A stretch of DNA of 64,000 nt from Cinnamomum chago (Eukaryota; Streptophyta; Magnoliopsida; Laurales; Lauraceae). Shown here one piece after another: positions 5,950 through 49,895 of the stretch (its first letter is position 1; each line of letters starts with the position of its first letter). Location: assembly GCA_038049695.1 (NCBI GenBank), contig CP142453.1:14574001-14638000 (forward strand), given 5' to 3'. The notes under the pieces are model-generated. The model was not told where the DNA came from and searched no databases. It was given only the letters and a program-made list of their open reading frames with translations. A program made the translations under genes and the position numbers.

Positions 5950-6165
5950 TTTTGAGAAATGGTTTGAGAGAGCTTCCTTCAGTCCACTCATGGTTGGCTT
6001 GTGGGGTTGAATTAGCTGCCGACTCATTCATTCATACGCTCAGTAGAAAGGGAAGCCGTTTAAGCTACTTTGTGAATGTGTGAATGGTGCGGGAGATAAA
6101 CCTTACCCTCTTCCCCCTATGCTTGGACTGAAGGGAGCTCCCTCTTCCCTCTCCCTCAGGACTAC
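5950..6165 (+). ncRNA. MIR319: MIR319 microRNA precursor
   Basis: The 21 nt at 6123-6143 begin TTGGACTGAAGG and end GAGCTCCCT, matching the conserved plant miR319 as I know it. The opposite arm at 5969-5989 (AGAGCTTCCTTCAGTCC, then ACTC) is its near-complement and is the miR319* strand. The miRNA lies on the 3' arm. Between the arms is a second paired block (GCCGACTCATTCATTCATA with TGTGAATGTGTGAATGG), giving the unusually long two-block hairpin typical of the miR159/miR319 class, which is processed from loop to base. By family knowledge miR319 directs cleavage of TCP transcription-factor mRNAs and so controls leaf and petal growth. The surrounding primary transcript is not delimited here; CT-rich leader sequence lies 5' and a 241-bp tandem duplication lies 3'. 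Confidence 0.95.
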
Positions 6166-13408: not shown

Positions 13409-13480
13409 GGGCGTTTGGTCTAGTGGTATGATTCTTGCTTTGGGTGCAAGAGGTCGCGAGTTCGATTCTCGCAACGCCCC
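13409..13480 (+). tRNA. tRNA-Pro (anticodon TGG)
   Basis: The 72-nt gene folds as a full cloverleaf. The acceptor stem GGGCGTT pairs with AACGCCC, with C as discriminator. The D arm is GGTCTAGTGGTATGATT, the anticodon stem TCTTGC pairs with GCAAGA around TTTGGGT (anticodon TGG), and the T arm is GTTCGATTC. The A and B boxes look intact. CCA is not encoded, as expected of a nuclear gene, and there is no intron. Upstream, ATCAAAAGC gives the CAA motif typical of plant tRNA genes, preceded by AT-rich sequence. A T5 Pol III terminator follows at about 13487. It appears functional. Confidence 0.97.
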
Positions 13481-24700: not shown

Positions 24701-27700
24701 TTTTGCAAAGAAAACCCCACATCTTGGAGTTCCTTGTAGGTATCGAATTACACGAAGAACAGCACTCCCATGAAGATGCCATGGGTTAGACATAATTTGG
24801 TTGACAACTTGAACTACATAGTAAATATCCGATTGAGTCATTGTGAGATAGATAAGACAGCCAAATAATGCCTGTTAAAGAACCGGATCAGAAACAGGCT
24901 CTGCACTGTTCTTGTTGCATTTCACATTTAGCTTCATTGGTGTATCAACTATCTTTGCATCTAAAATCTGAGCCATTTCAATGAGATCTGTTGTGTATTT
25001 CTATTTAGAGAGAAAGATACTAGTAGTAGTAGGAGTTACTTTCAAATGAAGGAAATAAGTAATGTACCCCAGATCTTTCGTCACAGTCAATATCGTACTC
25101 TTGTTGATAACCCAAAACAACAAGGTGTTCTTTGTATCTGTCAGGACTTCCATATGATTTTAGCCTTTTTTTGTATAAAACAATTTACAACCAATGGGTT
25201 TGACATAAAACAGGACAGGGACAAGATCTCCTGTGTGATTATCCTGGAAAGCCTTTAGTTCCTCATCATAACAATCTGCCTACACCTATAATTCATTGCC
25301 TACTTGTAAGAGTTGATGGAAATTGATCTTAAAGGAGACATAGAACAAAGCCATATCAGTCAGGAGGTTTTATGATACGAGAAGAATGACGGAGAGAAAT
25401 GGCAGGAGAATCACATGTAGGGTTCTGTGGCATACCTATAGAAGCTTCTGAGGAAGAGTTACGTGGAGGTGGCTGGCCATCTTGCCTTTGACCCTGATAT
25501 ACCACACCCTTAAATCATCCAAGTGAAGACAAATCAGAGACTGAATCAATGGATGAAGGAGAGGAATTAGTAGACGCGTTGGAGAAAATAGGTATACAGG
25601 AGATGACAAAAAAGAATTAGATGAAGACCGAGAGACATGAACGAAAGAAAAAAATTCTAACTCATTTTGTGTGTGTGAGTGTGTGGTGGGGGGACGGCCA
25701 GAGGCGCAGCGGATGGAGACGGGAGCATTCAAATTTGGACATAAGAAAGCTGACAAATCTCAAGGTCAACAAGGCGATCGAGACCAGAGAAGTAGGCAGG
25801 TGAAAATAAGATCAAGAGATAAAAGAAAATCCAGCTGAATAAGCCGCATAGAGCACTCCAATGCACTCTCAACAAACCTTTGAACCCTAGCAATCTACAA
25901 GAAAATAACCCCAAGCTCCAACCAAACAAGCTTGATAGCTGAGAAAATCTGGCCAAATGAAACATCTCTTCAGATCGTATCTAATCTGAGAGATGTTTTA
26001 GGTTTACATTTAGGGAGAATTCAAGATCGTCCCATCTACAAAAATTCAAAGCAAAAGAAGCAGTGAATGAGATGAAGATGGGTTAGTCCCGTGGGGGGAA
26101 GCCTAGCCCTAGAAATCGCTCTAATACCAGCACAATTTCATAGTTGGTATGAAAACTGCCCTATCCTCTTTAGCGGGGTGCCTCATTTTTATATTAATAA
26201 CCTCAACATACAATTACATGAATATCCTTTAGGAAGATTTTAAAGAGAGGATATGTACAAGGTTGATAAGGAAGAACTAATTTACAAGTACTGTCTCCAA
26301 GATCCCCGATATTTGAATAAATCATATAGAGGTAATATTCTGCCAGTGTACCAAAATTGGTACTATCTTCACATATATTACACCAACTGATCCCAAAACT
26401 AAATTCTAAAGAGTAAAGCTATCTTCATCAAAATCCAGGGATTCAAGAATCAATAATAAACTATCCACCCAAAACCAGAAATCTAGAGACAAGAATCTCA
26501 TCAAATCACATTTTCAAATAAAAAATACATTATAACGCCAAAAAAGCTATATATTTTTTTTATCAAAATTCATGGACCCATGAACCAATTTCAAGCTTTT
26601 CCTACACCGAGTATAAAATATGGAAAATAAAACGCCATCAAACTATATTTTGGGAAAGAAAATGCATCAAAACACAAAAGAAAACTATTTTAATAAAATT
26701 CATGTGTTCAAGAACCATTTTCAAACTTTCACCACCTCGAATAAAAAAAATGAAAACTAGAATCTCATCAAACTACCTTTTAGGGGTAGAAAAAGTCAAA
26801 ATCCTAGAGAAGCTATTCTTATCAAAATTCAAGGATTCAAGAACCAATTCCCTAATAGCTTATAAAGGCCATGTCCATTTGTCCTCTTCCAATTCATTGG
26901 GCCCAATTAGATGTGTGGTCCATTTAAATCCAATTAGCCACTTCACATCATAACACAATTGTTTTGATTGAAACTAAAATTGGATCTTTTCATATCCAAT
27001 TATCACATTGAATAAGCAATCAAGGAAAGATTGCTTCTAGATGATATTGATTGTTGATTAGATAGTTAATAGAAAATCCCCTCATCTCTAGCCTGCCACT
27101 CCACCCAATATACACACCATGCCCAGCCATACTGTCAAGTATGTGTAGTTTTTCCAAGCTTTACCATCAAGTATGTGTGATTTTATGTGAGGAGTACAGA
27201 AGTAGAGCCTCCTAGACCAAGATCATGGCCAAAGCACCATCAATAGATCTTTCTCACAGCAATCGATGGCCACTCAAAGTACATATATAATGGCTTTGAT
27301 TTAAATTTCAAGATTATATTTTATACATCCATGTATATTACAAGGGAAAAAAATTTCTACAATCCCTGCCTTTCAGCCAAATTAACCAAAAGTCATTATA
27401 GTATTCAAATTGTTTTTAGTCCCTAACTTCTACAATTTAAAATATAGTTGCTTTGGTCAAAATCCAATTAACAAATGAAAAAAATGCCTCTCTGTGGTGA
27501 AACAATTTGGTCCTTTTGAAAGTTCTTTTGACTTCTAAAACCATAATTTTCAAGTGTGGGCATTACATAATGGTTTTGTTAGCCAAATAACAGTCGCAAT
27601 TCTTGACCCAAGCATCCAACCCGACCCAATAATTCAAGGTTTGGGCTGACCCTCTTTTGTTTTCATCTTGTGTTAAAGTTGAAGTTTCTAACTTGATTGA

Positions 27701-29027
27701 GAAATGAGTTGGCTTCGAAACAAGTCCATTCTAACTATTTGACCCACCAACCCGACCTCATCAATAAATGTGTCGGTCTTGGGATGAGTTGACCCAATGC
27801 TCAACCAAACATGACACACTGCTACCTTTTAGGATTTGATCCGGATTTTAACTATTATGTACATCTAGCTATTATGGGTTGGTCTCAATTGAGCATATTG
27901 ATTGATTCACAATGCTCACCTTTGAAAAATCCAAAATCTTTACTCTCCTATCCTATCAATTGGCATTCACCTTAATTCGTGTCTGATCCAACCATTTACT
28001 ATTGTTGGATTTAGTCATGGAATAAGTATGCACTCAAAACAATCATTAAAGGTTGATGCACTCAAATCCAAGAGTTACAATTATCTATTGGGAGTGACAT
28101 TGGCTCAAAGGGTGGCTATGGGTAGGCTCAACCTAACCCAAAACCAAACGGAAAGTTAACCTTAATTAAAAGATCAAGTTCAGTTTGGATTGGCATGTAT
28201 AGTTTGGTTGGCAGGTCAAATAGTAAGAATGGACTGAACTCAAATACAACTCATTTATAAATTGGACCATAAATATCAACCCCAATCCAACCCAAGAATA
28301 AAAAAAAGGGTCACTTAGAACCTTGAATCACCCAGTTGGGTTGGTGGGTTGGGTCAAGAATTGTCATTCCTAATCAGTCAACCATACCAGTACCCATGTT
28401 AAAAAAAAATCAAAAAATCAAAAAGTACAAACCTTTTCAGTGCAGTAGAGCATTTGTACCATTTGCTACACAGATTTTGACCTAATAATTAAGAACAAAT
28501 ATAATGGGGAAACTTAAAGCCAAAAGGTGGGGACTCTAGAACAACTTTCCTTATTACAAATCTTCTAGTTTTCAATTCAAACTCTCAATTTTACCAACCC
28601 AAATCGAAAACTCTGAAAGCTAAAATCTGATCAAAATAACATTTTAGGAAGAAAACAAAAAGAAGGAATCTTTGAACATCGCTTACAGATGTTTCTCTTC
28701 TGCGACAATCATTTCAGCGAAGGATCCAAGCGCCGCAAAGGAGCAGACACGATCTCCGACCTTGAACCTGGAAACCCCATTTCCGACGGATTCGACGACG
28801 CCGGAGTAGTCGGATCCAGGGACGAAAGGGAGAGGGGGTTTTTCTTGGTACTTTCCCAAGATTTGGAGGTAGTTTGCGTAATTGAGACTCGTTGCTCGGA
28901 TTCGAACCCTAACTGCCGTAGGAGAATCCAAGGAAGGGATGGGATGCGAGGTTGAGATGGAGATTGGAGACTCTGATGAGATCGGGACCGTCGGATCGCC
29001 AAGCCTCTTGCACAGAAGAGCTTCCAT
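15711..29027 (-). CDS. quinone oxidoreductase-like protein (MDR superfamily), six exons, C-terminal SKL
   Basis: Exons in coding order are 28687-29027, 22538-22646, 21067-21158, 20691-20949, 19876-20019 and 15711-15806. All introns are GT-AG, phases agree, and the joined frame is 346 codons plus TGA. The ATG at 29027 is the first in frame. The product is a zinc-free medium-chain dehydrogenase/reductase. Exon 1 holds the GroES-like domain ([14 protein letters not shown] and [13 protein letters not shown], with GDRVCSF). Exon 3 holds the NADPH-binding GAAGGVG at about residues 156-162. Exon 4 has [12 protein letters not shown] and [13 protein letters not shown], and exon 5 [12 protein letters not shown]. 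The order and near full length match the Arabidopsis quinone oxidoreductase-like protein I know as AT3G56460. It should reduce quinones or reactive carbonyls with NADPH; the substrate is inferred. The last residues SKL are a canonical peroxisomal PTS1. Introns 1 (6.0 kb) and 5 (4.1 kb) are swollen by retroelements, yet no exon is broken. Confidence 0.93.
17761..17932 (+). promoter_or_regulatory. LTR promoter: four GGTCGACCGAG palindromes and TATA box
   Basis: The 10-12 bp palindrome CGGTCGACCG with flanking GAG occurs at 17761, 17783, 17868 and 17889. Between them AACGGTCAG and CTGACCGTT (17837-17858) form a perfect 9-bp inverted repeat. TATAAATA follows at 17925. Position directly upstream of the TATA box suggests enhancer or protein-binding sites of the LTR promoter; this is inferred. 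Confidence 0.6.
18093..18780 (+). repeat. tandem repeat of about 300 bp inside the solo LTR
   Basis: Copies begin with AATCATATG at 18093, 18400 and 18688 (the third partial). Shared segments in order include TTGGTAAATC, AACATGTTAA-like, TTGTTTTGGATACA, AAGTAGTACTT, AGTAGATCATGTTAATGAAA, TTGGTTGTTG and CCATCATAAGAAAATC. The copies are diverged by substitutions and small indels. Confidence 0.8.
20233..20544 (+). repeat. tandem duplication of about 150-165 bp in intron 4
   Basis: Copy 1 is 20233-20380 and copy 2 is 20381-20544. Both contain TATGATGCTTG, ATATTTCAAAATAGGCAACA, GTGTTGTATCTTAT and TGTGTAAATCTATGTC, and end TATCTGGGAATCAT. A diverged relative lies at 43916-44008 in an intron of the bromodomain gene, so this is a dispersed repeat that was then duplicated here. 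Confidence 0.8.
21640..21915. repeat. decayed repeat in intron 2
   Basis: The stretch is rich in GGGCT/AGCCC-type words (AAGCCCAGATCAGG, GGGCCTGGATCAG, AGGCCCGATAG, CCGGTGAAATGTGCAACCCC). This pattern is common in decayed MITE-like plant repeats. Ends and duplication were not resolved. Confidence 0.35.
23869..24118 (-). repeat. 3' LTR of the Copia element
   Basis: This copy shares ATGAAAACTGCC, ACAATTACATGAATA, CCTTTAGGAAGATTTTAAAG and AAATTGGTACT with the other LTR. It retains TG...CA ends on the minus strand. Confidence 0.88.
24170..25330 (-). pseudogene. Copia pol remnant: reverse transcriptase to RNase H
   Basis: Translating the minus strand in shifting frames gives a recognisable Copia series. 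It runs INSYKQAM and [15 protein letters not shown] (start of the RT domain), IFLSK then [12 protein letters not shown] and [12 protein letters not shown] (late RT), [20 protein letters not shown] and ILRYL-like [13 protein letters not shown] (RT/RNase H joint), and [21 protein letters not shown] (RNase H end). Stops and frameshifts interrupt it and DADW is degraded to NVDW. Gag, protease and most of integrase are missing upstream. It cannot encode an active polyprotein. Confidence 0.82.
26130..26373 (-). repeat. 5' LTR of the Copia element, abutting the primer-binding site
   Basis: This LTR starts (minus strand) TGTGAAGATAGTACC at 26373 and ends at 26130, directly next to the primer-binding site. 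Its last two bases read GC where the other LTR has CA. The two LTRs differ at many positions, so the insertion is not recent. Confidence 0.85.
27590..28372. mobile_element. decayed TIR element in intron 1
   Basis: The left end (CAATTCTTGACCCAAGCA, CCAACCCGACCCAATAATTC, AAGGTT) is roughly complementary to the right end (AACCTTGAATCACCCAGTTG, GGTTGGTGGG, TTGGGTCAAGAATTG). Similar half-length sequence lies at 59690-59885. Ends of this type occur in decayed hAT-like plant elements. No target duplication was resolved. Confidence 0.55.
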
Positions 29028-29150
29028 GGAAGAAGACCTTTGAGACTTGAGAGAGAGAGAGAGAGAGAGTTTTCAAGAGAAATGGAGAGGACTCTGAGCT
29101 CTTTTTCACTGCGAACGAATCCTCTACGGGAAATGTGAACAGAAAAAAAA
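29028..29150 (-). promoter_or_regulatory. 5' UTR/core promoter region of the oxidoreductase gene
   Basis: Upstream of the ATG the minus strand carries a (CT)n run (29050-29069) and CT-rich leader sequence up to about 29135, typical of plant 5' UTRs. No clear TATA box was seen, so the start site is not fixed. Confidence 0.4.
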
Positions 29151-33133: not shown

Positions 33134-33690
33134 AATATTGACACTTAATTCATGCCTAAGCACAAATATAATCAAATCAAACTTCTAAAATATCTACTAT
33201 TTACTTGATATTCCCCTAAAATCTCACAAGTTCCCATCTTTATCAAAAAAAAATTGTTATCATAATTATATTTACTAAATTAACTAAATAAATCTAAGGG
33301 CCCTATTGCGAAAGCCGATTTTTCTATTTCCAAACTCACAATTAAAGGGGGCCACTTTCATAGTCTATATTTACTACTTTTTTTCTCCTTATTCTCCTTT
33401 CAATATTTGGCATAAGTAATTTGTGGGACCCATCATGGAAGCCGATCGGTTTCAAAATTCATATTTAGTTTTGAAAGCGACAATCAATTTATGCTTAAGC
33501 ACAAATAAAATAAAATCAATATCCTATAATATCTACTATTTACTTATTATTTCCCTAAAATCTTTTAGCTTTTTAAAATTTTAGAATATTTCAAGTCATT
33601 TTAAACACTTATAAACATTTTTAATTAATTAAAACTTTAATTAATTTTTATCATGGCTTGCATTGGGTGGAGGCCTGCTACACAAGTTAT

Positions 33691-34836
33691 ATATATTAAA
33701 GCAAAGGGGGAGGTGAGCTGTGAGGGGTGTCACCTCATTCCAAAAAAGTGTCTCTGGGCTGTGAGGGGTGCCACATCATCCTTAAAAAAGTCTCTCATTT
33801 TAAAGAGGGCTATTATTTCTCTCTTAAAACCTCTTATGAGAGATTTTTATGAACGTTTGAGTTTGAGTCATTTTTCTTGCCATTGTCCAAATTATAAGCA
33901 AATCTTTACAGTCAATTTGTTTTCTTTTCGTTAGATCTTCAATCATCAATGTGTCTCATGTTAAATATGTTTTGTGGGCCCTACCGATGACTGAAATCCA
34001 AATTGTTGCTCATTTACTCTCCTTTCAGTTTTTTTTCCCTAAAGGGATGGATCCAGTAGCGGGCACCAATTTGTACATATTTTAAGATTGGACTCCAGTA
34101 TTGGATGAAATCCCAATGGCCCTCACTTAACCCATTTTTTCTAAGAGTGGGCCCCACTGATGGAGGGAGGCAAGCCTACTGGTTGTTGTCTGGTTTCTTA
34201 ATGGAAGCAAATCAATTAGTGGGCCGCGCACATTTAACTTATTTCTGCAGTGGGACCCACTCATGGATTATGCATAGATATTAGTTTGCTAGGTCAATAT
34301 GGATTATGGATTATTCTCTCTCTCTCAACACCATCTATCTCTCATCATCTCAAGATTGTCATGTTTTTATTTTAATATTTGGGGCCCACCTTTCAACAAT
34401 TCACACTGATAAATTTTCTCATTAAAAATATCATTTTCTTTTAGTTTCCAAATAGAGCTCTACTCTATTCAGAGATTGTCACACGTGAATGAAAATCAGA
34501 CCCGGTTTTAAAGTCTCATAATTTATGGCTTTTAAAATTAAGATGTTTATACTTTTTTTTAAAAAATTTAGAGCTAAAAAATGGTTTGATCAATTCTAAA
34601 ATGGCATTGGTGCTACTTTAAAAGAGTAGAGAAGAAATTTGTGCGGAAGGATTGAAATGATCATTTGCCTATGTGAAAATAACACTTGTATTTATGATTG
34701 AAGATGTGTTAACTGTTTTTATATAAATATGTATGAATATATTCTTATATATTTATAATTAATTTTGATATCTAATAAATTAAAAATATAATATCTTACT
34801 TTTTGCCCCGGGCTAAGCATGGGGCGTTATTGCTAG
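33691..34836 (+). mobile_element. Helitron A (non-autonomous)
   Basis: It starts in TATATATTAAAGCAAAGGGG and ends CCCCGGGCTAAGCATGGGGC, a short spacer, then CTAG before T. No Rep/helicase is encoded. It is closely similar along its length to the next element (for example GGGCCCTACCGATGA, TTCAAGATTGG-like, AGTGGGCC, CTCAAGATTGTCAT). Its intact ATTCTAAAA site (34593-34601) is the pre-insertion site of the MITE found in Helitron B. Confidence 0.75.
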
Positions 34837-36396
34837 TATATATTAAAGAAAGGGGGGAGGTGGGCTGAGGGGTGCTACTTCATCCCTAAAAGTCTTTCTG
34901 GGCTGCGAGGGGTGCCACATCATCCCTAAAAAGTATCTATTTTAAAAAAGGGCTACTCTTTCTCTCCTAAAACCTCTCTCATAAGAGATTTTTATGAAAG
35001 TTTGAATTTGAGTCATATTTCTTGTCATTATCCAAATTATAAGCAAATCTTTACAGTCGGTTTGTTTTCTTTTTCTTAGATCTTCAATCATCAACAGTTT
35101 GTTTTCTTTTCCTTAGTTCCTCAATCATCAATGGGTCCCATATTAAATATGTTTTGTGGGCCCTACCGATGATTGAAATCCAAATTATTGCTCATTTACT
35201 TTCCTTTCAGTTTTTTTTTCCTTAAATGAATTGATCCAGTAGTGGGCACTGGTTCGTATTAAATATATTTCAAGATTGGACTCCATTATTGGATGAAATC
35301 CCAATGGCCTTCTCTTAACTCCTTTTTTCTAAGAGTGGACCCCACTAATGGAGGGAGGTAAGCCTATTGGCCGTTGTCTGGTTTCTTAATGGATGTAAAT
35401 CAATTAGTGGGCCCTGCACATTTAACTTATTTCTGCAGTTGGACCCACTAATGGATTATGCATAGATATTAGTTATCTAGGTCAATATGGATTATGGATT
35501 ATTCTCTCTCAACACCATCTATCTTTCATCCTCTCAAGATTGTCATCTTTTTATTTTAATATTTAGGGCCCACCTTTCAACAATTCACACTGATAATTTT
35601 TTCATTAAAAATATCATTTTCTTTTAGTTTCCAAATAGAGCTCTACTCTATTAAGAGATTGTCACACGTAAACGAAAATCAGACCCGACCTTCTGGTAGA
35701 CCACTTCATGGATGGGCTTGTGATAAAAATGTTTAAAGGTTGGAGTTTTTTTAATTGAATCTTATAGGCATCATTTTCTGATTTGATTATATAGACAAAT
35801 GACCCTAAGTTTGCCCTACCATAATTACACTTTCGTGGGCCCACATGGACCCATAATTAAGAGATATATACATTGATTCAAGGTGGGCCAATTATTACTG
35901 GGATCAAACAACACTAACCTGTTGTTTTAAAGTCTCATAATTTATGAATTTTAAAGTTAAGATGTTTATACATTTTTTTTTTTAGTTTAGAGCTAAAATC
36001 TGGTTTGATATATTCTAAAAGAGGAGAGCTCACACAAGCTGCAGTCCAGCTTATTACAAGCTAGAGCCTCATAAGCACCGTTGGGCCTCACCTGGGCCTC
36101 ACAGGCTCCAGCTTGTAATAAGCTTAGCTGCAGCCTGTGTGAGCTCTCCTCATTCTAAAATGGTATCGGTGCTACTTCAAGGGGTAGTGGAGAAGAAATT
36201 TGTGTGGAGGGATTGAAATGACCATTGGCCTATGTGAAGATAACACTTGTATTTATGATTGAAGATGTGTTGATTGTTTTTATATAAATATGTATGAATA
36301 TATTCTTATATGTTTATAATTAATTTTGATATTTTATAAATTAAAAATGTAATATCTTATTTTTTGCACTGGGCTAAGCATGGGGCGTTGTTGCTA

Positions 36397-36397
<1 letters not shown>
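34837..36397 (+). mobile_element. Helitron B (non-autonomous), joined to Helitron A
   Basis: It begins at the base after CTAG of Helitron A with TATATATTAAAG and ends GGGCTAAGCATGGGGCG, spacer, CTAG at 36394-36397. It matches Helitron A along most of its length. It carries an extra block of about 240 bp (about 35687-35925) and a 131-bp MITE (36021-36151). No transposase is encoded. Confidence 0.75.
36021..36151. mobile_element. MULE-type foldback MITE with 9-bp target duplication
   Basis: The 131-bp insert starts GAGGAGAGCTCACAC and ends GTGTGAGCTCTCCTC, with the inverted pairing continuing inward (CAGCTTATTACAAGCT against AGCTTGTAATAAGCTT). It is flanked by perfect ATTCTAAAA duplications (36012-36020 and 36152-36160). 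A 9-bp duplication is the hallmark of Mutator-like elements. Helitron A has the same site once with no insert. Confidence 0.92.
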
Positions 36398-36444
<47 letters not shown>

Positions 36445-38132
36445 GCAAACTGGTAGGAGAGCTGTGAGGGGTGTCACGTCAGCACCCATAATTTCTCTTT
36501 TCAAAAAAATACTTATAAAACCACACAGAGCTTTGGGCTTAATGTGGGCCACTACTCCCTAACAAGTCTCCTCCCTTAAAATCTCAACCGAAACAAATCT
36601 CTTCAAATCCCCTCCCTTAATTCTAGAAATAGTTATAATCTTAAATCTAGATCACACACCTCCTTGGATTTGTTCTCCCTAAAATCTCGACCACTCACAT
36701 TTTAAAGTGAACCTTATGTCATTTTCCTTACAAGATTAGAATCAACTCCATTTAATAGAGGTCTAATGGGCCCCGCTTTCATGGTTTTGGCCGTCAAAGA
36801 GAATGGGTAGGACTAAATTATCATTATCTGAGAATAGATCAATCATCCAACTTTGGATCCTCTCAAAGCAATCGGTTTAAACTAAAAGATATCATCCACT
36901 TCCATCTTCTAAAATCTCTCCTCTATAGTTATAATATCCACCTAACATTCCCTATTTCTATAAAGATAACATAAAATTTAAATTCAAGAAGATTTGAATA
37001 CCAACTAATTTGGACGATAGTTTGGAGCATCCAAGTCTCTATAATTCAAAACCCATTATGTCTATCGTCCCTAACATCTTCATTTTGGTTTGCAAGTTAT
37101 TCAAATATCTACTTCCTCCATTTCCATTTGTGTGCTGGGTTCGAAACTGCTCTACTGATTTCAATCTTCATTTGGTTTGCAATTTTTTAGTGTGTGCAGT
37201 ATGTAACGGGGAACTTAAATATGTACATCAAATGTATGTTAGATGAAGAAAATCTGTTGTTAGTATGCAATCCTATATTAAATTGTTGACTATGCATCAA
37301 CTATACAACAGATGATTAATATTAATGTGTTTTGGAATCTAAGAAGCTACTTTTGCAGAGAAGACATTTGATGGAGTTTCTGTATCAGTCAACCTCATGG
37401 GATGAGGTTATATGATAATGCATGTTCTTATTGAATAGTTTCCATTCTGACTTGACGTTAAGTGGATAGAGATTCACACATCTTGTAGATCAGGATTTCA
37501 AGTCCAAAATGGTGCAGGTAATCGTTTTTGGGTGGTTTATAGCCATATGCAGTAACCTCTTTAAAAATGATTGAGTTGAATCAGAAAAATCATTAATTCA
37601 ATTTGAATCAAGATTGTAGCAGAACCATTTGAGTAAAATCTACATACCACACTAGAAACTCCAATGGGGCCTTCTTTGACTATAATCATTTCTGAATAAA
37701 ATATAGTGTACAATGGTAAAAATTAATTTTATTAATTTGTGCATTCTAGCATTATCATGGTTTCCTATTTTTTTTTTTTTCAACATGGTCTTATTTGAAA
37801 ATATTGTGATGGCCTAAGAAGAAAAAACGAAACTGCAAAAATATGTAACTTTTAAGCATCCATTTCTCATAACTATGATTGCTCAATCAGCGAATTCTAT
37901 ATTAGCAATGGTGGTTAGATGTGATTAGAGTGGCATCCCATACAAAGGTTCAAGCAGCGCATGAAACACTAAACCAAAGTTAATGGATCATGCATGTTAT
38001 TTGAGTCATTTTAGAACTATATTTGTATGTTTCTTGTGGTATGAAGATTAGATAGTCATTTATTTTATTTTCAGTAGTCTTTATCTTTTTCCTAGCAAAG
38101 CATTTTTAGATAATTTTTCAATATAAATCTTA

Positions 38133-38910
38133 GGGACATTTACTTCAAAAATCACATTAAATAAGGTAATTACAACTAAGGACCCTAAATTTTTATAATG
38201 ACGGCCAAGGACTTCCAGCCCAAAATCCAATATTTCATTCCATTTTTGCCCTTGGTTAGTTGATGTCAACATAACACTACAAAAAAAAAAAAGAAGAAAA
38301 AAATGTTCTTCACACCCAAATCAACAACAACAATAGAATAAAAGAAAGAGAGGAAGGAGATTAACACCCTACCCCTTTTTTCTCAATCACAGTAAGAGAG
38401 ATTGCTCGATGTCAACAAAATCTTAAACAACGGAAAACTCAATTTTTGTTGATGCTAATTGGGTGTTTTTGTTGATGTCAACACAATTTTATATTGATCT
38501 TAACGAATCTTCTGTCGACGTCAACAAATTTACAGGGTCACTTATGCTGTTGACTGTGCATTTTTATTGACCTCAACACAATTCTATGTTGATGTCGATG
38601 AATCTTCTATCGACGTCAACAAAATCCCAGTCACTGACTGTGATAACTGGGCATTTTTGTTGATGTCAACACAACTTTATGTAAGGATGTTGAAGAATGT
38701 TTTGTTGATGTCAACAAATATTACTCATAACAGAATGGGGAACTGATTATGTTGACATCACCAAAAAAAGGGCAAAATAAGAAAAAAAAAAAAGAAAAAA
38801 GAAAAAAAAAAGAGATGATTTGGGCTGGAGGTCCTTGGCCGTCATTATAAAAGTTTAGGGTCATCAACCGTGGGTACCCTATTTAAGAGGATTTTTGTGG
38901 TAAATGTCCC
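38133..38910. mobile_element. MULE-type element with TIRs of about 95 bp
   Basis: The left end starts GGGACATTTACTTCAAAAAT and runs through ACCCTAAATTTTTATAATGA to ACGGCCAAGGACTTCCAGCC. The right end is its complement, ending AAATGTCCC. Flanks TAAATCTTA and TAAATCATA form a 9-bp duplication with one change. The interior has several copies of TTGATGTCAAC-type palindromes and poly-A tracts, and no transposase. Confidence 0.85.
38410..38765. repeat. degenerate repeats built on TTGATGTCAAC
   Basis: The partial palindrome TTGATGTCAAC or CGACGTCAAC recurs about every 30-60 bp inside the MULE-type element, together with GCATTTTTGTTGA and GAATCTTCTATCGACGTC segments. At least three units of roughly 110 bp can be traced (near 38463, 38558 and 38650). 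Confidence 0.6.
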
Positions 38911-39241
38911 TAAATCATATAATTATTTCATTTTTAAATTTGGGAGATTTATATGTTGCTTTTGTGAGGCACCTCTTTCTACAAAGACAACGGGGGATCA
39001 ATGCCTTTTTCTACAAGTGTTTCTGATATGCTTCTAAGATTTATAGATAACTTATAACCTATTTCACATGAATATAAATTTATTTTCCCACAAAGATGAC
39101 CAGGGATCAATGGTCATTTATCATATGTATTTCATTTTTACTAATACTCTTCATTTCTATAAAATAATTTCATTTTGTAATTTTATTTTTTATATATTCT
39201 CATTTTTTGTGCGCGGGCTAAGCACAGGCCTTTGTTGCTAG

Positions 39242-40304
39242 TATAAACCTATGTGTAACATGTTACACCAAGATGGGCCTTTATAATACAAGGATGCCCA
39301 TTTGACTATTGGGGCGAATAGTCCAATGGAGATGTTCCTCCTACCAAAATTGAACTGACATTGCTTGCCACCAGAACTGACATGTGGGTTCTCTCCATGT
39401 GAAATTCAAGCCATCCATATCATACTCTTCCCTGTAAAGGCATTCCTGTAGAGGCCTCCCTTTCATCACCTTGTACTTCCTTGAATAGTAGTGAACTAGA
39501 TATTTTTGGATCATGGGAGCAAATCAATGGTTTTCATTTCCTAGAGAAAACCATTTGCAGTTTCCAGAAACACATCCCAGAGAAGTAGAGAACCATCCCA
39601 GACTCATCCCAGAGAAGTTGAGAACCATTTGCTGCAGTCTCATATACAAGGGGTTGAAACGCATTCCATCACTCTAAACAATAGAAACTGAAACCATAAA
39701 AAATGAAGACATGAGTTTCCATTTTCCCCACAAAATGAAATCACTGTGGATGTAAAACTTCCATGGAAGACTATAAAAAACATGCCCTTTAGAGAAACAG
39801 AATTTCCAATTTCCTCTGTTTTTCCATTAGTGCAAAACTTCTTTTAAACTTAGCATGACTGTGAAAATGGCAGTGAAGATGTTAAATCGTTGAATCTGTT
39901 GCTTGAACTTACTGCAAATGAGAAATCCCAGTCCATGCATGAGAAAAGGGGGTAGACAAACAAGGAGAGAAACAAAGAGCCAACCAACTCTTTTTTTTTT
40001 TTTTTTTTTTCATTCATTTTCTAAGCTTTTCCAACACAATTTAATTTATCTTTTCAACCCTGAAAAGTTTCTATAATCTAGGATGGATACAGGTGAATAA
40101 AATCTAAACTGCTCTGTTGGGTAGTTTGAACCACATGGAGGATATTTTTGGGAGGAGGGACTAGACTATTTCTAAGTAATGGGTAAAATCATCATGGGCC
40201 CACCTAATGAATGGCCCAGGCCTTGACACATTTTAGACAGAATTTCAATACTTTTGGCTTCTACCTTATTTTCTGCTCCTCTTTAGGGAACAAGTCTTGC
40301 AGAA
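39242..40304. other. 3' flank/3' UTR region of the bromodomain gene
   Basis: The side nearest 40305 should hold the 3' UTR of the minus-strand gene. A T-run of 22 lies near 39989-40010. No further gene is seen. Confidence 0.4.
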
Positions 40305-43300
40305 TTATAGCTGAAGGGCCAGATCAGGGTGTGTATCAAACAGCATTCGAGTACTCAGCTCCCCCTGAAGGCTATGGCCCACATTCCTCTCAGAGTCATC
40401 CACAAACACAGTCTCTGAAACATGCGCTGGGGGCAATTCCAGCCTGGAAATCCCATTCTGGCCCCATGAATTCGTCCCACCAAGCCTTGCCTGCAAGTAT
40501 GACATGTCAAGGACGGTCTGCGGGCCCCATAACTCAGGCCGGCCCCATGGAGAGCACTGATCCATCTGAGATGAGTCATTCCTGCCGCTCAGATCTGGCG
40601 CCTCCACTGCAGCTTGATCCTTTCCATCTAAGGTATGGACACGGGGGTTGTGAATGGAGTCAGCAGCTTGGCCAGAGCCAGAGGGCTTCATGGCTTGAAA
40701 AGGCGAAAAGGACGATGCTGCAGCTTGATTCTCTATGTTAGAAGTATGTAAACCAGAGATATGTATGGGGTTGGCAGCTTCACCTGAGTTGGAGGCCTTC
40801 ATGGCTTGGAAAGGCCAGGAGTGCAATACCACGGCTTGATTCTTTTCATTAGAAGTTGGGAAGCCAGAGTTAAACATGGATTTGACACCTTGGTCTGAGC
40901 CAGAGGCCTTCATGGCATGGAAAGGCCAAGAGGGTGATGACGCAATTCGATTCTCTCCATCAGAAGTTTGGAAGCGGGATTTATTCATGGAGTTGGAAGT
41001 TTGACCTGAGCCAGAGGCCTTCATGGCTTGGAAAGGGCAAGAGGGAGATGCCCCAGCTTGATTCTCTTCATCAGAAGTTGGGAAGCAGGAATCATGCATG
41101 GAATTGGCAGCTTGGCCTGAGCTGGAGGACTTCAAGGATCGGAAAGGCCTAGAGTGTGATACCGCAGCTTGTTTATCCTCGTCAGAAGTTGGGAAGCTGG
41201 AGTTATGCATGGAGTTGGCAGCTTGGCCTGAACCAGAAGCCTTCATGGAATGGAAAGGCCAAGAGTGCGATACTGCTGCTTGATTCTCGTCATCAGAAGT
41301 TGGAACGCTGGGGTTCTGCATGGAGTTGGCAACTTGACCTGCGCCAGAGGCCTTCACGAAATGGAAAGGCCATGAGGGAGATAACACGCCTTGATTCTCT
41401 TCATTAGAAGTTGGGAAGGAGTTACGCATTGAGTTGGCAGATTGGCTTGTGCCAGACGCCTTCATGGCATGGAAAGGCCAGGAGGATGATGCCGCAACTT
41501 GATTATCTTCGTCAGATGCCTGAAAGCGGGAGTTATGCATAGATATGGCAGATTGGCTTGAACCAGATGCATTCATGACTTGAAAAGGCTGAGGAGGCGG
41601 TGTGACCACACTGTTGTTATTTTTTAACATGATTTCAAGCAGCCTTGATTGAGAAAACTCCGCAGTCAAATCACCTGACTGAGTCAGGTTACCAGGCAAT
41701 CCGGAACCGGGCATAGTTGCCAGGAACTCATTCCTGGAGTCCCGATTGAAAGCAGCCGGAATACCCGAACTCCCAAAACCGGAGGGCAAATATGAACAAG
41801 ATGGGATATCGGAACCTTGATTCTGATGGAACATTTCTCCTGTAGCAGTGCTCAAAATATCATTCCTGTTGGCGGTGTCAACATTGGCATTCGGATGATA
41901 GGATTTACTGCCTACATTAATCCTGGATGCAGGAAAAATGACAACATTGTTAGAAGGAACAGGTGTTGGCTGTACTGGAAGCTTTGCCGGAGTCTGAAAA
42001 TTCTGACCAGGAGTCTCTGGTGGCAGTGCTGGAGTCCCGAAATTCCATCCTGGAGCCTGGAGGTCCCACCCCGAGTTATGAGATTTCTCTAACTTCCGTT
42101 GAGCCACCATTTGAGCTGTCGGCCCCAAGTCCTTGACAAACTGTTGCAAACTTGCTGTATAGCTACTACTGTCCAGATTCGCCTGCAGAACCAAGAGGTT
42201 GTAATCATAAACCAATCACTGTCACCCTCAAAAGAGGATATATAAAACTGCTTATAAAGACAAAAATTAGACGACAAACAACAAGGTGTATGCACACCTA
42301 GGAAAATGGGAAATTGTTCTAGAGGGTAATTTTAATGAGAGCTACACTCAGGTCAGGTTTCCATGATTAGGGCCTTTTTTTTTAATCAGATAGAAAAACA
42401 AAGATGGATAGAAGAGGGAATCAATAGTGGCTGACAGTGGACCAGCCCCAGAGAACGTGGGATTTTTTTTTTTTTTTTTTCTGTTTAGTCAACAGGAGGT
42501 AGTGTTGAGGGAATGGAATATTTTCATCTCTTCAATTTCTTTTCTTTTCTTTTTTTTGGGCCAAGATTTTCCACATTTCCTATTCTCGAGTTTTATTCCC
42601 AATACCAAATAGGCCCTAACAAAAACATGGATATCCAGATTCCAGGATGACATGTGCAGATGGTAAAGCATATTACGAAATAAACTGAAAAACGAAGTTT
42701 CGCATAAGTATTGATGGAATCAATGTGGAGGAAGATGGTAGGAAAAAGAGGTCTGAAAGAGAAATATTTTAAACTGGGAGAACACATTTAATAGAAGAAC
42801 ACTAATTAAAATGTTGTACTTGCAAGCACAAATATGCAATGGCAACAAAATTGAGGTGTTATTCAAATAGTATGGTTATCTTGCATCTGTTTGGTATATA
42901 CCTAAATTTGTGAAAATTAGAAATTTATTTTGATATAAAATGATACACGGTCATCAGTAAGATCAAAAGCTCAATCAAGTACTTGGAAAATTTAGAAATT
43001 TATAATGATATAAAATGATATTGGTCATCAGTAAGATTGAAAGCTCAATCAAGTACTCAGAAAACTCCCAAGTAGAATCTGTTATACAACTGGGTTAATG
43101 AGAAACTAGCATGTGACACCCACTTCGCTGCTGCTAAGGCTAATAAAAAGGTCTTATGTCCTACTAGCATGATTTACAAATAGATTTGATCCTCGTAGCA
43201 ATATACAACTGTGGTTTTCATAACATCGGATAACTTTATTTATACAAAAGACAGATTTTATTTTGTAAAAAAATGATTTATTCAACTATGGACCCATCAT

Positions 43301-46300
43301 TGATTTTTCTTTTTTCTCCCTTCTTTTTGTCTCAGTGACTAAATATGTTCCAAAAGCTAACTGTAGGTTACATTCACTTTTATCCATGTTTGCTTACAAC
43401 CACATGTGCCACTCGTAAGAAGAAGGTGCCAAGTAATAAACATCAACCGATTACAGCATGTAAAGAAGAAACATGCATTATCAGAGTGCATTGCCAAAAA
43501 AACATCAACCAACTTCGGCTTGTTAAGAAGAAACATGCATTATCAGAATGCACAATGCCAAATAACGAACTGCAAAAGTCAATATGTGAAAATAAATAAA
43601 TAAACAAATAAAAGTCAAAAGCCATGCAAATTAAGTTCTAACAATGATGTTAGTAACAATCCCAGAGAACGTCATAAATAGCAGTATATAAAGAATGTTT
43701 TTAGAGAAAATAAGACTTACGTAGGAAAGCTGCCTTGGGCTATCAGCAAGTGTTGAAACTAGTGACTCATTGGAGCTCAGGAAATCAGCCCAGGGTCTGT
43801 AGGAACGTCGTTCTTCTTCAACAACGTTAGACTTTCTACCATCTCTAAACCCTGTTGAGAAGAACAATATTCTAAAGGAGTTAGTGACTTAGCTCCTTAT
43901 CGTATAGACTTCAAAACTATGGCATCTGGATACTTCAAAACGGTCAATGTGTCCTTATCTAATACTTCAATTTTATGTGATCAGTTAGTGGTGTGTCCTT
44001 GCTCTATGTGGGCATCACTGAAGTAATCAATAATATTTAACATACTGTAAAACCTGGAGTGACTGCATGTCGGCTTGGATGGACATCAGAATTGGAACCA
44101 CGTAAAATAGACCAATCTTGATTTCGGGAACCATCTGTCCATCCATCCTGCAAAATGATAATAAAAGGGTGCAGTGGATGGTCCACTTGCAAAAGTAACC
44201 CTAAAAATGACAATGAAATTGAAAGAGCAAGTCCTCTTTCCATGACATTCTCTAGGTGGTATGACAGATCACGCTATTTCTGCTTGTGCTGCACACCATA
44301 AAACCAAACACCCTAAAACTTTAAGGAAAATAAGAATGATTAAAGGAAAAGGGAAAGCAGATTTTTAAATCAAAGCACGTGTACAATCTCAAACAATTCC
44401 ATGGTCCACTGTGACTCAACCTATCAATGGTCTAAAACCTGGCATTCCCTTGACATACCAAATTAGCTTGATGAATTCCACGCTTGAATAAAACTTTTGG
44501 TTAGTGGATTAAAAATTAAAAAGGATAAAGACAACAGTAGAAGAAAAAGGAGCAAAAAAAAAAAAAAAAGACTTGACAAGTATTTCAGTATTCTCAGCTG
44601 GGAAGTCTTCCATAAAAATTATGGGTGTAAATGAGACAAGCTGATCCAAGTTTAAACTAGTTTGAGATTGGCTTAAACGCTAAACAAGCCAGCTTGAAAG
44701 AAGCCAAGCTTACCTCAAAACCAAGCTATCTCAACTCATTTTGACAACACTAAACTGACCTCGAGCTTGACTTGACAATGTATATCAAGTTCGAGTAAAC
44801 CCAAGTCAAGCTCCAATATTTACATATTGTTTTGGATTTTAGAGGGATGGGTCCACAAAGGTCAAATAAGGCCGTTACCAAGGTCGTACAGGTTCGTTGG
44901 CAGGATATGATCATTTCTCATTTTCCTATATCCCATTAAATAATTTTGTTATTAAAAAAGGAACAGTTCTAAAAACTTAAATCTAATGTATTATGCCTTA
45001 AATATACTATGTCTATACCATATCAAGTTGAACCCTTTAACAAGAAGAGCTCGTGTCAAGTGAAGTAGGACCGAGCTTGAGATTTACTCATGAGACAACT
45101 GAGTTGAGTTCAATCTCAAGCTCAATCAAGCTGAGCCGAGGACTTCTTACCTTGAGATTGGCTCATGAGACAACAAGCCTTGCTCAAATTCAAGCCCAAG
45201 AAGTCGAGCCAATCAAGCTCTTGGCTCGTTAATAGCCCTTTTGAAGAAGAATTGTGTAATGATGGGAATTTTGGTCAGGTTGAGCTGAGCATTGCGTACA
45301 CAGGGTGCATCTTTCAGCAATCCAGACAGTTCAACATATCCTTCACAGAACAAACCTAGCTATCTGCCAAGTGAATATTTTAAGGAATTGATGCTAAGAT
45401 CTCCCATATGGGAACTCTTCACAGCATCAGCCAACAACTGCATGGTCCACTACATGAACCAAGTTTAAATTGCTGAAATTAGGCAACATCCCTGCAGAAT
45501 GCTCATTTAAGTGAAAATGTAGGTACTCTTGGCTGAGACTTGAATCATTTCTCCTCAAATCTCACATCTCTATGAGACTTTGATAACTGTCAGAAAACCA
45601 GATATAAAATTGGACTCTCCATAACATCACTCTAAAGGTTGCAGCAAAGAAAACAAAATGACACGGATTTCAGGTCCAAGTTGATTTCAGTACCGAAAAG
45701 GTCTTCACTAGTTCTTCGGTTCTCAACAAGAGCAGTCGAACCACTGGCCATAGGGCGTTCATGGAGGTTTCTTTTAAGACCCAAATGAACCTGTGATGGC
45801 CTTTGTCTATCAATTGATGTAATATGGCTGGTCAGATTGATTGATTTCACACTGGTTGCAGGCTTAGGGTGTGAATCTGAGTTTCCAGCATCTGCCTGGC
45901 CAGTTTCATCCACATGGCTTTTCATTGCCTTGTTCAAGTAATGCCGGCGTCTCGTGCTTGAGAACTCTGATTCGAAGTTTTCTGGATCAGTTCTTAGAGC
46001 AAGAAAAGCCTTCTTCGCCAGTTCTTGGATAGAACGAGCCTGGAAAAAGCCAGCAATCAGTCAATGAAGAATCTAAAGATTGTGTTCATGATACCTTAGC
46101 CTTTAAATATAAGAAAAAAGTAAAATTTAAAAATTTTACTTCACACTCAGAAGTAAGAACTTACCTGTCGGTAAAAGACTGTACTTGGGGAATTGAAAAG
46201 CATAGCATTGCTGCATATCAAGAGAACGTCATTCTGCGACTCGGGAATTCAAGAAAAATACAATAATCAGTTGACAATCCAAACACTTAAACCTAATGCA

Positions 46301-49300
46301 GTAATTGTTTTAAGAAAATGCAGTTGTTTATTAGCATTACAGGCTCTTTGTTATATCAGCAGGATTTTCTGTAAGTGAGAAAAGTCTGACTCAACTTTTA
46401 GGATGCCAGATCGCTTGTTTCCTGATTATAAGTGAGAAAAGTAATAAACTTTGTTTTCAGGATTTTAGGATGCCAGATCGTTTGTTTCCTAAAATCTTTG
46501 TTATACCAGCAGGATTTTCTATAAGTGAGAAATCCAAAACATTTTAGGATGCCAGGTCCCTTGTTTCCTGATTTCCACCTCAAGTTTCAAGAGCAAACCC
46601 AAATGCCAATTTTGGAAATCCTAGAAAAAGAAACCTTGAACTTCAAATCATACAAGGTATCCCTAAACAGCTTTCTCATATATGATGGTTATTGGTGATA
46701 TCCATGAAAGACAACAAAACTATTGATGCGAAAATGTCAATTAAAAATCACTTTATTTTTATCAATTAGTAACCACATCTCAGTAAGCAAAAACAAAAAG
46801 ACGGCACCAGAAGTACAGTATCAAAAGGAGACAACCTCGAACTGCTCAAGAGATGTGTACAGTCCTTCCTGAAGTTTCGCCCTCATCGTGCCAAAATCCA
46901 TTGGATCTTTAATAATATCATAGTAACCTTCAACCTGGTCGATCAAAAGACTTGAATCTATTAGTGTCTATAAATAAACTGATTCTTAACACCTGAATTT
47001 AAAGAACTGCTACCAAATACAAACCTCATCGGGATCAACTGGCTCAGCAAATATCTCATGTGTGTCTTTCCTGGAATAAGAACATGGAACAGGAAAAAAT
47101 AAAAAAATATATATAAAAAAGAAAGAAAGGTCAAACTCTATGAGATTTATTATTTAACAAATAATTTAAGAAGCTATTAAAAATAATTTAAAAATCCAGA
47201 GAATGCACCTATTTTCCATTTTTTTTTTATACTTAGAATTGAATCACATATAAGGTAAGGTTATAGACACCTACCACCAACTCTACATGTTGGGTTCAAG
47301 TCCCAAAGACAAGAAGGGAGGTAAAGGAGCTAAATTCCTGTATGAGCCAGTTGCTACAAAATTCCTAGGGATTCATATGGTTTCTATGAAGGGGTATTGA
47401 AGGTATGAAAAATGAAGTGTCATGGGTGGAAGACCTAGAGGGAGGCCGGAGGCATCAAATTCTTAAGATTTAATTTCTTAGAGTGGAGGATAAGCAATCA
47501 TTTCCTATCGAAGGACGATATATTTTAATAGTCCCCTCTAGATCTCAACATTTGATCATTCACTCTGAGCCCCTTGGATGGAACCTTATTTTTTTTATGA
47601 AATCCTTCAAATTTAGTAAGAAACTAAGAATCAGGCAAAAGGGCCCTAAAAGTTTGGGACGGAGTGGAATCAGAAATGACAACAGGTATGAAACTGCTCT
47701 TTCTAACTTTGTACATCCCAAATTATATTGGTGATTGGTGCTTATATGAGTTGGAGAAGAAAATGCATAAGAAACAGTATCCTATCTCAAGTGGCTCCTT
47801 CTTATTTCCACGAAACGCTAAGTTTACAGTACCATCCACTTTGCCAAAACATAGTTAAAATGACTGCGATAAATCCAAATGGGGATTTAATATTATGCAA
47901 GATGCATACGTTAACTTCCTCTAATCAAATCAAAGTGAGAGAATTTGCAGTTCCAGTTACCTTTGCAGTACATCAAGGATGAGCTCAAGTACTCGTTTGT
48001 CTGGAATGCAAGATGCACTGCTTGATGATTTGTCTGTGGCAGTAATACTAATTCAGACCTTGATTTGAGTCTTAGAATGGCAACTTAATAACATATGATT
48101 CATACTTCCAGCAATGACAGAAAAGGACACTAACCAGCATTGCGCAGATGGCCATCTCGTTGGAGATTTTTTCCCGCCTGCAAAAAAGCATTCTGAAGTA
48201 AAAAAAGACGCAAAAATAGACTCCCACCTTATGTTGCGAAAGGGGGAGGGAGGTCCTGAGCAGAAATCAAAGAAACACACCGACTGATAACTATGTCAAC
48301 ATCTGTTATCAAGAATTTTTCCTTGTCAGTTCCAGATGTGAAATGCAAGAAAACTATAAACCAGATAGCAGTCCACCATGAGATGGAAGCCATTACATCA
48401 TACAAAAATTATTTCAAATAGAATTTGTCAGCAAGCAGAAAGGAAATCCATGAAAAGAGTGAAAAGATAAATGATCTCAAAAACTCAGATAGTGAAGCTC
48501 TCCAAATGGTAGAAAAGCACACTAAGCAGCTACTAACACAAGTAATGGTTAAGCTCATTTCTAAAATGAAACCTGCAAGTTGCAACAACCCTAGACATTT
48601 CGTTCACAGCAAAGGCCAACAAATTACTCCTGGAAGAATAAATTCAATTGGAATCCATCTATGAATAGATAATAAAATAGTCATATTTTACCAAAATGAA
48701 ATACAGACACACTTTAAGAAAGCCTTTAAATTTTCTTAAATACCCAAATATGATTATGAGCATGTATTCATTTGAACTGACTGCTAGAAATATGATGTAC
48801 CAAATTCAGGTGAAGTCGAATAAGTTAAGCATCTAAAGAACTCAGTACAAATAGCTAATGGAATGCATGAGAACCAAATCAATATTTAAAATATACTACT
48901 TCAGCATTGTCATCATCGTCATCATGCTTACTTATCCAAGTCAATCTATTAGAAAAGAACCAATGTATCAAATATCAGCAAAATGCCTACAATGTCCATG
49001 CTAGCAAAGAAGTAAGTGGTGAACAAAAGGCAAAGACTGAGACCAGAGGTGACAATGAGTACTTTGTGTCAATTACTTATATAACCATAACGTATCAAAC
49101 CAACCAGTAACAAATACAGAACAACTCACTTTGGAATCAAGAATCAAATGAAAAGTTAGGGAACAAATGAGTCACCCCATAATCCTGTTCCTGTTCTCGG
49201 ACCAACCAAACATTTATGTAACAAAAAAAAAGACATATTCTGCCCAAAGTAAATGTGGCCATTTAATTTGAGGTACATCCAAACATCACTTGATATTGTT

Positions 49301-49895
49301 CAACAAAAAGAACATCTTTCAGAGTTCATTCCAGAGTTGACTTCAAATCAAATAAATTCAAGTAACAGAGTCCATGCCACCTGTAAAACTAGGATCATAA
49401 ATAAACATACAGACTATCAATAAATTCAAAATGATCCTCTTAAAAGCAGCCATTACCAGTTAGAACTCATTATTAAGGTTCTAACCATATAAACATTAAA
49501 AACCAACCACATGAAGTTACTATTCTATCTCCAAATTCCCAGTCAAGAAAACGTACAGTGAAAAAGAACCCCAGAAATGTCCAACAATAACTTCAACATA
49601 ATATGAGAGAGAGTAACAGGAAGAAGAAGAGGAGGAACGGGAAGAGGGAAAGGTCAAAAAAGCATACCTCTCCAACAACCTTGTCAACGGAATTAACTAC
49701 CACCTCTTCAACTTCTTCCAACTTCTTCTTCTTCCTGCCCCTCTTCTTCCCGGGCAACCCCTGTCCCCTGCCCGTCTCCTTTCCATCCTCTGCCCGCTTC
49801 TCCACCTTCGGGACCCCACCACATGGAGCTTTCTCCTGCTTACACTTGTCAAGAGCAGAAAGCCTCGCACTCCTCCTATGTATACCTTCTTCCAT
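40305..49895 (-). CDS. bromodomain-containing protein, ten exons
   Basis: Exons in coding order are 49668-49895, 48135-48177, 47961-48033, 47025-47070, 46836-46934, 46165-46233, 45694-46039, about 44054-44134, 43721-43851 and 40305-42182, about 1000 codons. The ATG at 49895 is the start; the frame upstream has only GTG. Residues 50-58 (KKRGRKKKK) form an AT-hook/NLS-like basic patch. The bromodomain spans about residues 100-200: IPDKRVLELILDVL, the ZA loop AEPVDPDEVEGYYDIIKDP with MDFGTM, and NAMLFN, whose last Asn is the expected acetyl-lysine contact. After FYRQARSIQELAKKAF comes a long low-complexity region, a conserved WADFLSSNESLVST, and QFVKDLGPTAQMVAQRKL. These C-terminal motifs recur in plant bromodomain proteins. 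It should bind acetylated histones in the nucleus. The exon 7-8 junction is ambiguous (see findings). Nine 37-aa repeats fill exon 10. Confidence 0.92.
40593..41588 (-). repeat. nine tandem 111-bp units encoding 37-aa repeats
   Basis: Within exon 10 of the bromodomain gene the protein repeats a unit that opens PFQAMKASGSGQAANSMHNS and continues FPTSDEENQAAVSxSW. Nine units are present and all keep frame; unit 2 has 36 residues, the rest 37. Units differ by many substitutions, yet PF, K(A/S)S, the hydroxyl/Asn spacing and the acidic ENQ segment are kept. The composition is Ser/Asn/Gln-rich and probably disordered. A perfectly in-frame array with diverged DNA suggests selection on the protein. 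Confidence 0.95.
42918..43067 (-). repeat. 75-bp tandem duplication in intron 9
   Basis: Copies begin TAGAAATTTAT at 42918 and 42993. They share GATATAAAATGATA, GGTCATCAGTAAGAT and AAGCTCAATCAAGTACT. Confidence 0.8.
43438..43561 (-). repeat. 62-bp tandem duplication in intron 9
   Basis: Copies begin AAACATCAACC at about 43438 and 43500. Both contain AAGAAGAAACATGCATTATC and AGA(A/G)TGCA, and end TGCCAAA. Confidence 0.8.
43916..44008. repeat. dispersed repeat in intron 8, related to 20233-20544
   Basis: The stretch with CTATGGCATCTGGATACTTC, GTGTCCTTATCTAATACTTC and ATTTTATGTG resembles the duplicated unit in intron 4 of the oxidoreductase gene (TATGATGCTTGGATATTTC, GTGTTGTATCTTAT). It is one diverged copy. 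Confidence 0.5.
44622..45239. mobile_element. decayed hAT-like element in intron 7
   Basis: The left end TGGGTGTAAATGAGACAAGC and the right end, read in reverse, AGGGCTATTAACGAGCCAAG, are imperfect inverted repeats. The interior is full of AAGCTTGAGCTCAAG-type words. This composition is typical of decayed hAT-like elements in plant introns. The target duplication was not resolved. Confidence 0.5.
46345..46570 (-). repeat. interspersed short repeats in intron 5
   Basis: TTTTAGGATGCCAGATCG followed by CTTGTTTCCT (or a close variant) occurs three times, near 46396, 46463 and 46537. CAGCAGGATTTTCTRTAAGTG occurs near 46358 and 46508, giving a higher-order unit of about 150 bp. Confidence 0.7.
47225..47955. 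other. intron 3 sequence, partly repeat-like
   Basis: No exon of the bromodomain gene is needed here: the phases of exons 3 and 4 join directly. The middle (47270-47700) has a different texture from the flanks and may be an old insertion, but no termini were found. Confidence 0.3.
48178..49667. other. intron 1 of the bromodomain gene, nothing else recognised
   Basis: The stretch is AT-rich sequence between donor GTATGC at 49667 and the acceptor at 48178. No coding or element signal was supported. Confidence 0.5.

Follow-up and report, generated by a model that had tools for sequence, protein, structure and literature searches.

The protein studied here is probably related to the BRD7/BRD9 group of bromodomain proteins. 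In human BRD9, the DUF3512 region is necessary and sufficient to bind the other subunits of the complex, according to the accessible part of the report (PMC6479050). For Arabidopsis, the accessible texts are discordant on BRD5 as a BRD7/9-like protein. One of them considers both BRD1/2/13 and BRD5 as homologous to BRD7 and BRD9 (PMC11234113), whereas two others argue against this for BRD5. In the first of these, the orthologues of BRD7/9 that are listed are BRD1/2/13 only, found in BRM complexes, and BRD5 (At1g58025), recovered in CHR12/CHR23 complexes by IP-MS with TPF1 and SHH2, is termed uncharacterised and streptophyte-specific (PMC9170682). In the second, the bromodomain of BRD5, a protein of 572-582 aa, is placed near bromodomain 1 of BET proteins and not near BRD7/9 (PMC10030601). 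Another partly accessible report clusters BRD5 apart from BRD1/2/13 and mentions a longer C-terminal region in BRD13 (PMC10451976); BRD1/BRD2/BRD13 are described as the closest to human BRD7/9 (PMC10451976, PMC9170682). BRD5 has also been reported together with BDH2, as far as the text at hand goes (PMC9967331).

The present analysis concerns a gene carried by the minus strand of a 64-kb stretch of Cinnamomum chago DNA (hereafter the window), whose last exon contains a tandem array. The gene model consists of ten exons, which were positioned manually so that phase and AG/GT borders agree, and predicts a protein of 969 aa (637 aa without the array). Exon 1 (49668-49895) starts with an ATG at 49895, encodes a basic KRGR/KKKK stretch and ends with the donor gtatgc; exon 2 (48135-48177) has AG/GT borders and a compatible phase. 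The bromodomain region begins in exon 3 (47961-48033), extends through exons 4 (47025-47070), 5 (46836-46934) and 6 (46165-46233) and ends in exon 7 (45791-46039). The donor of exon 7 is uncertain: models were built with 45791 (CAG/gttcat, 969 aa) and 45665 (TCC/gtgtca, 1011 aa), and further in-phase GT sites are present. For exon 8 (44054-44147), the donor CAG/gtttta was chosen because it preserves the phase with exon 9 (43721-43851), in which a DUF3512-like stretch begins (residues 302-375 of the 969-aa model). Exon 10 (40305-42182, 625 aa) has an open frame between 42182 and its stop codon (40305) and comprises successively the last part of the DUF3512-like stretch, a segment of 198 aa ahead of the array, the array itself and a unique 95-aa tail with the stop (40305-40592). 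This tail has no Pfam match and ends with LALQL, an EAR-like LxLxL sequence. The original prediction had placed the array in the C-terminal exon (exon 10) of a bromodomain protein, and the hand-built model gives it the same exon number. On the opposite strand, a putative 176-aa ORF (40211-40741, +) is antisense to the last units and to the 3′ end of the gene, and shorter putative antisense ORFs (60-98 aa) likewise overlap exon 10.

The bromodomain (PF00439) was identified by Pfam at residues 109-188, with 84.3 bits for a cut-off of 21.7 (E 5.8e-24); DUF7877 overlaps it below threshold (22.1 for a cut-off of 27). Among the best 60 of 399 matches to PDB sequences obtained with the bromodomain included, BRD9 bromodomains come next after one multi-bromodomain polybromo chain (E 1.9e-20), with BRD7, BRD1, TAF1 and peregrin close behind. 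The DUF3512 match located behind the bromodomain (residues 302-375) reaches 13.4 bits, below the curated cut-off of 23.4 (E 0.071). It was found again (13.6 bits) on a piece carrying part of the bromodomain and was not reported for two protein pieces without bromodomain. A comparison of the region behind the bromodomain with PDB sequences retrieved no BRD7/9 chain, the top matches being unrelated (E 0.6-1). The DUF3512 match is thus a weak lead and not a proof. Taken together, the bromodomain and this weak match suggest a plant BRD7/9-like protein, which would probably belong to a SWI/SNF chromatin-remodelling complex. No ET domain was revealed by Pfam at E up to 1, either in residues 1-392 or in exon 10, which together make up the whole 969-aa model; this speaks against a BET protein. 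GTE12 (At5g46550) was rejected as an orthologue, because it is counted among the BET proteins in the accessible literature and the ET domain is absent here. We lean towards a BRD5-type rather than a BRD1/2/13-type protein, a tentative assignment drawn from length and the Arabidopsis sequences in general and not from a direct comparison.

The array consists of nine tandem units and extends from 41588 to 40593 on the minus strand; the unit borders that we determined coincide exactly with the coordinates first proposed (40593-41588) for a nine-unit array of 37-aa repeats. Unit 1 (41478-41588) is a diverged edge unit, unit 2 (41370-41477) is one residue shorter (36 aa) through a 3-nt, frame-preserving gap, and it is followed by unit 3 (41259-41369), unit 4 (41148-41258), which is the closest to the consensus, unit 5 (41037-41147), unit 6 (40926-41036), unit 7 (40815-40925), the diverged edge unit 8 (40704-40814) and the edge unit 9 (40593-40703), which is the most diverged. 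The eight units other than unit 2 are all 37 aa long, and the DNA consensus of the nine units translates to PFQAMKASGSGQAANSMHNSRFPTSDEENQAAVSPSW. TRF reported a period of 111 with 8.5 copies (score 876), and an ungapped repeat search found the same 111-nt spacing. Autocorrelation reaches 0.69 at lag 111 for DNA, compared to 0.27 ± 0.016 when the codons are shuffled 1000 times (0.33 at most), and 0.51 at lag 37 for the protein, compared to 0.088 ± 0.016 in 1000 residue shuffles, i.e. z of about 27 in both cases. A profile of the nine units searched against the 969-aa model recovered these nine known copies and no tenth one, not even a degenerate copy in the flanks. The array accounts for 332 of the 969 aa (34%), without any stop or frameshift and with a single indel of 3 nt, so that its description as a frame-perfect third of the protein holds, as does that of a diverged array (pairwise identities between units of 61-83% for DNA and 36-70% for protein).

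The array was also said to correspond to no described domain. In agreement with this, it gave no significant Pfam match, the best one (CBM26, E 0.26) being below cut-off, and exon 10 as a whole gave none with PDB sequences at E up to 1. Exon 10 had no match in a set of viral contigs, in which plant sequences are not expected. Elsewhere in the window, the best tblastn match to the array (26728-26838, E 0.072) lies inside a 130-nt tandem repeat and was taken as due to chance.

Several other features were detected in the window. A MIR159 microRNA precursor (5956-6154; 148 bits on the + strand and 96 bits on the - strand) supports the plant origin of the DNA, and a tRNA-Pro (TGG) gene is located at 13409-13480 (+) according to both ARAGORN and Rfam. 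Apart from the gene itself, a Pfam scan of eight out of 28 ORFs gave one match, an ADH_N domain (E 8e-16) in the ORF 28683-29072 (-), which could be the start of a quinone-oxidoreductase-like gene. The region 33690-36480 is a direct tandem of stretches of ~1.2 and ~1.6 kb (about 33.7-34.85 and 34.85-36.4 kb), whose main blocks are 87-96% alike; the second stretch contains an extra hairpin (36018-36154) with arms 88% complementary, possibly MITE-like. A large inverted repeat (38130-38913), with 95-nt arms that are 83% complementary and 594 nt apart, surrounds a ~95-bp tandem repeat and resembles a non-autonomous transposon.

The edge units (1, 8 and 9) differ from the DNA consensus by 20-26%, compared to 11-14% for the inner units. 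Mean DNA identity between units is 0.725-0.754 at lags 1-5 and drops to 0.68-0.61 at lags 6-8, where every pair of units includes an edge unit. Both patterns fit an expansion via unequal exchange that would have left the edges unhomogenised. TRF also lists a period of 333 at the array, but a higher-order 333-bp period was rejected, since identity at lag 3 (0.748) is not above that at lag 1 (0.754) and the tree of units is poorly supported.

Selection on the array was evaluated by a neutral simulation fed with the 159 observed substitutions; as it assumes that the nine units are independent, its power is overstated and its P values are optimistic. Neutrality predicts 5.2 stops on average, with a probability of 0.004 of finding none, and none was found in the 332 codons. 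Synonymous codon changes (n = 40) exceed the neutral value (28.1 ± 4.6) by about 2.6 SD, and nonsynonymous changes amount to 97 compared to 105.9 ± 4.8. Differences between units are 0.26, 0.20 and 0.35 at codon positions 1, 2 and 3, respectively. The ratio dN/dS between units, proposed from the outset as a check, is 0.56 when pooled; it therefore indicates a constraint, but a weak one, and exceeds 1 in seven of the 36 unit pairs. Overall, the frame has been kept and the composition loosely so, under weak constraint. These data bear directly on the hypothesis of a neutral minisatellite, i.e. an array functionless in itself, whose varying length the disordered exon would simply tolerate. The pooled dN/dS and its values above 1 speak for this hypothesis, and so do the near absence of columns that stand out (see below) and the 34 further TRF rows, some of them overlapping, elsewhere in the window. 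However, the lack of stops, the synonymous excess and the fact that the sole indel is a multiple of three together imply that the frame matters, perhaps only for the C-terminal end located behind the array. We regard pure drift as rather unlikely, although it comes next after the flexible linker that we consider the simplest reading.

The composition of the array was predicted to be rich in Ser, Asn and Gln. It is rich in Ser (20.5%) and also in Ala (41 of the 332 residues), whereas Asn and Gln together make up 14.5% of the array, no more than the 15.7% of exon 10 ahead of it, both values being taken from the same protein. The spaced aromatic PF and SW residues had a similarly mixed outcome: the PF pair is found in all nine units, whereas the W of SW (W37) is present in only five of them. 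Conservation of each of the 37 columns was compared to neutrality without correction, the gap of unit 2 being scored as a mismatch. Only P1 (P = 0.041) and F2 (P = 0.018) are below 0.05, S8 being at 0.050; 34 of the 37 columns show no conservation above the neutral level, and the variability of R21 and P35 exceeds it. 

These results are those against which a multivalent or condensate-forming tail, as initially envisaged, has to be weighed. In such a sticker-and-spacer scheme, the spaced PF (F/W) residues would bind a partner or each other ninefold and thereby concentrate the remodeller on chromatin. The constant spacing of PF in the nine units makes this possible, as does the fact that P1 and F2 alone exceed neutral conservation before correction, and the disordered tandem repeats of the diatom PYCO1, which carry aromatic stickers, are described to behave in this way in the accessible text of PMC10288592. 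Nevertheless, two columns out of 37 below 0.05 is the chance yield (37 × 0.05 = 1.9), and the other candidate stickers behave as under neutrality, W37 occurring in five units for 5.3 expected and F22 in six for 5.9 expected. Furthermore, aromatic residues (6.9% of the array compared to 7.1% of exon 10 ahead of it) are no more frequent than ahead of the array, and the same holds for Asn and Gln. Between a condensate and a simple flexible linker, none of the results obtained points to the former, and we consider the multivalent tail as doubtful, slightly behind pure drift.

Another periodic feature is the CK2-type consensus [ST]xx[DE], which is present at unit positions 24/25 (TSDEEN segment) in eight of the nine units. 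It raises the possibility of a phospho-array with one such site per unit, in which the charge and the reach of the tail would be graded by how many units, eight at most, are phosphorylated. T24 and S25 are each found in eight units, but neither is conserved above the neutral level (P = 0.21 for T24 and 0.22 for S25). In the acidic columns 27 and 28, only five units out of nine have the consensus residue. The array contains 14 CK2-type sites, compared to 6.3 ± 2.0 in shuffles; this excess is not independent evidence, because the copies inherit the motif from one ancestor. Such a function appears improbable. A motif scan of the array detected none of the SUMO, NPF, LxLxL and DLNxxP motifs, and AIM-type matches were at chance level.

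Disorder of the array, also put forward as a check, was examined by several approaches. An AlphaFold model of units 4-6, for which units 1-3 and 7-9 served as alignment, has a mean pLDDT of 52.8, a pTM of 0.10 and neither helix nor strand; the low pLDDT is no proof of disorder, because the alignment has three non-overlapping rows and no control protein was included. The array has a charge-hydropathy score close to the boundary (0.001), and this index separates disordered from folded parts poorly in this protein (0.052 for the bromodomain and 0.078 for exon 10 ahead of the array), and TOP-IDP gives a modest excess (0.165 for the array compared to 0.083 for the bromodomain). The lack of secondary structure in the model is consistent with disorder. 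In sum, the array-bearing C-terminal tail looks unstructured in these predictions. A folded repeat domain of a new kind, either solenoid or bead, would account for the near-constant period of 37 residues, and a new fold would be expected to lack a Pfam match. Yet the three-row model shows no secondary structure and low scores (pLDDT 52.8, pTM 0.10), Ser makes up 20% of the array and the hydrophobic positions vary. Of all the explanations considered, this one seems the most far-fetched.

We favour, with a probability of about 0.5, an in-frame expansion of 111-nt units that would provide a flexible, extended linker or spacer under weak selection in a plant BRD7/9-like protein. Two parts of this explanation, the bromodomain and the array, are observed, and the family and the complex are inferred. 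Recognition of acetylated histone tails would fall to the bromodomain and anchoring in the SWI/SNF complex to the DUF3512-like stretch, and the last exon would supply a long, apparently disordered tail that extends from it; this division of roles is proposed because the DUF3512 of BRD9 binds the complex, as stated in the accessible part of PMC6479050. One 111-nt (37-aa) stretch of the tail would have been duplicated in tandem and in frame up to nine copies, probably through unequal exchange, with edge units escaping homogenisation and copies diverging afterwards. The array may thus space the docked core from the unique C-terminal end, and selection would be weak and act on frame and composition rather than on any particular motif. 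A more speculative extension, which we hold to be quite unlikely, is that a lineage-specific array of variable copy number constitutes a tunable valence module: the number of units would set the strength with which the remodeller gathers on acetylated chromatin via the PF repeats, and unequal exchange would allow plant lineages to alter this dose fast.

Among the literature matches listed, and subscription papers aside, no title or abstract opening reports such tandem repeats for a BRD7/9-type protein of plants. Human BRD9 and BRD7 share with the protein studied here the bromodomain, behind which it carries a weak DUF3512-like stretch; among the best 60 of 399 PDB matches, these span residues 93-194 (BRD9) or 40-200 (BRD7), whereas the region behind the bromodomain and exon 10 match no BRD7/9 chain. 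The Rubisco linkers PYCO1 of diatoms and EPYC1 of green algae are disordered tandem-repeat proteins with recurring motifs, according to the accessible text of PMC10288592, and the array could possibly work like them; however, they are not known to be related to it, and most of its aromatic positions are at neutral conservation. Plant BRD1/BRD2/BRD13 (At1g20670/At1g76380/At5g55040), of BRM-type SWI/SNF complexes, have a single bromodomain as here, and BRD13 is 916 aa long with a longer C-terminal region, compared to 969 aa for the present protein. A single bromodomain is also found in plant BRD5 (Arabidopsis At1g58025; rice Os06g24870/Os08g01794), of CHR12/CHR23-type SWI/SNF complexes, with lengths of 572-582 aa for At1g58025 and 590 aa for Os08g01794, compared to 637 aa here without the array. 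Both groups were compared by description, and the accessible literature does not mention a tandem array in BRD5 or in BRD1/BRD2/BRD13. For BRD5, membership by IP-MS (PMC9170682, PMC9967331) and expression changes (PMC10030601) are described in these accessible texts, and a tested mechanism is not. If the array varies between relatives, it would provide a natural series for the effects of tail length or valence on the function of a remodeller subunit. Overall, the array is real and located in a known kind of protein, of which it represents an unusual yet understandable expansion of a disordered-looking tail.
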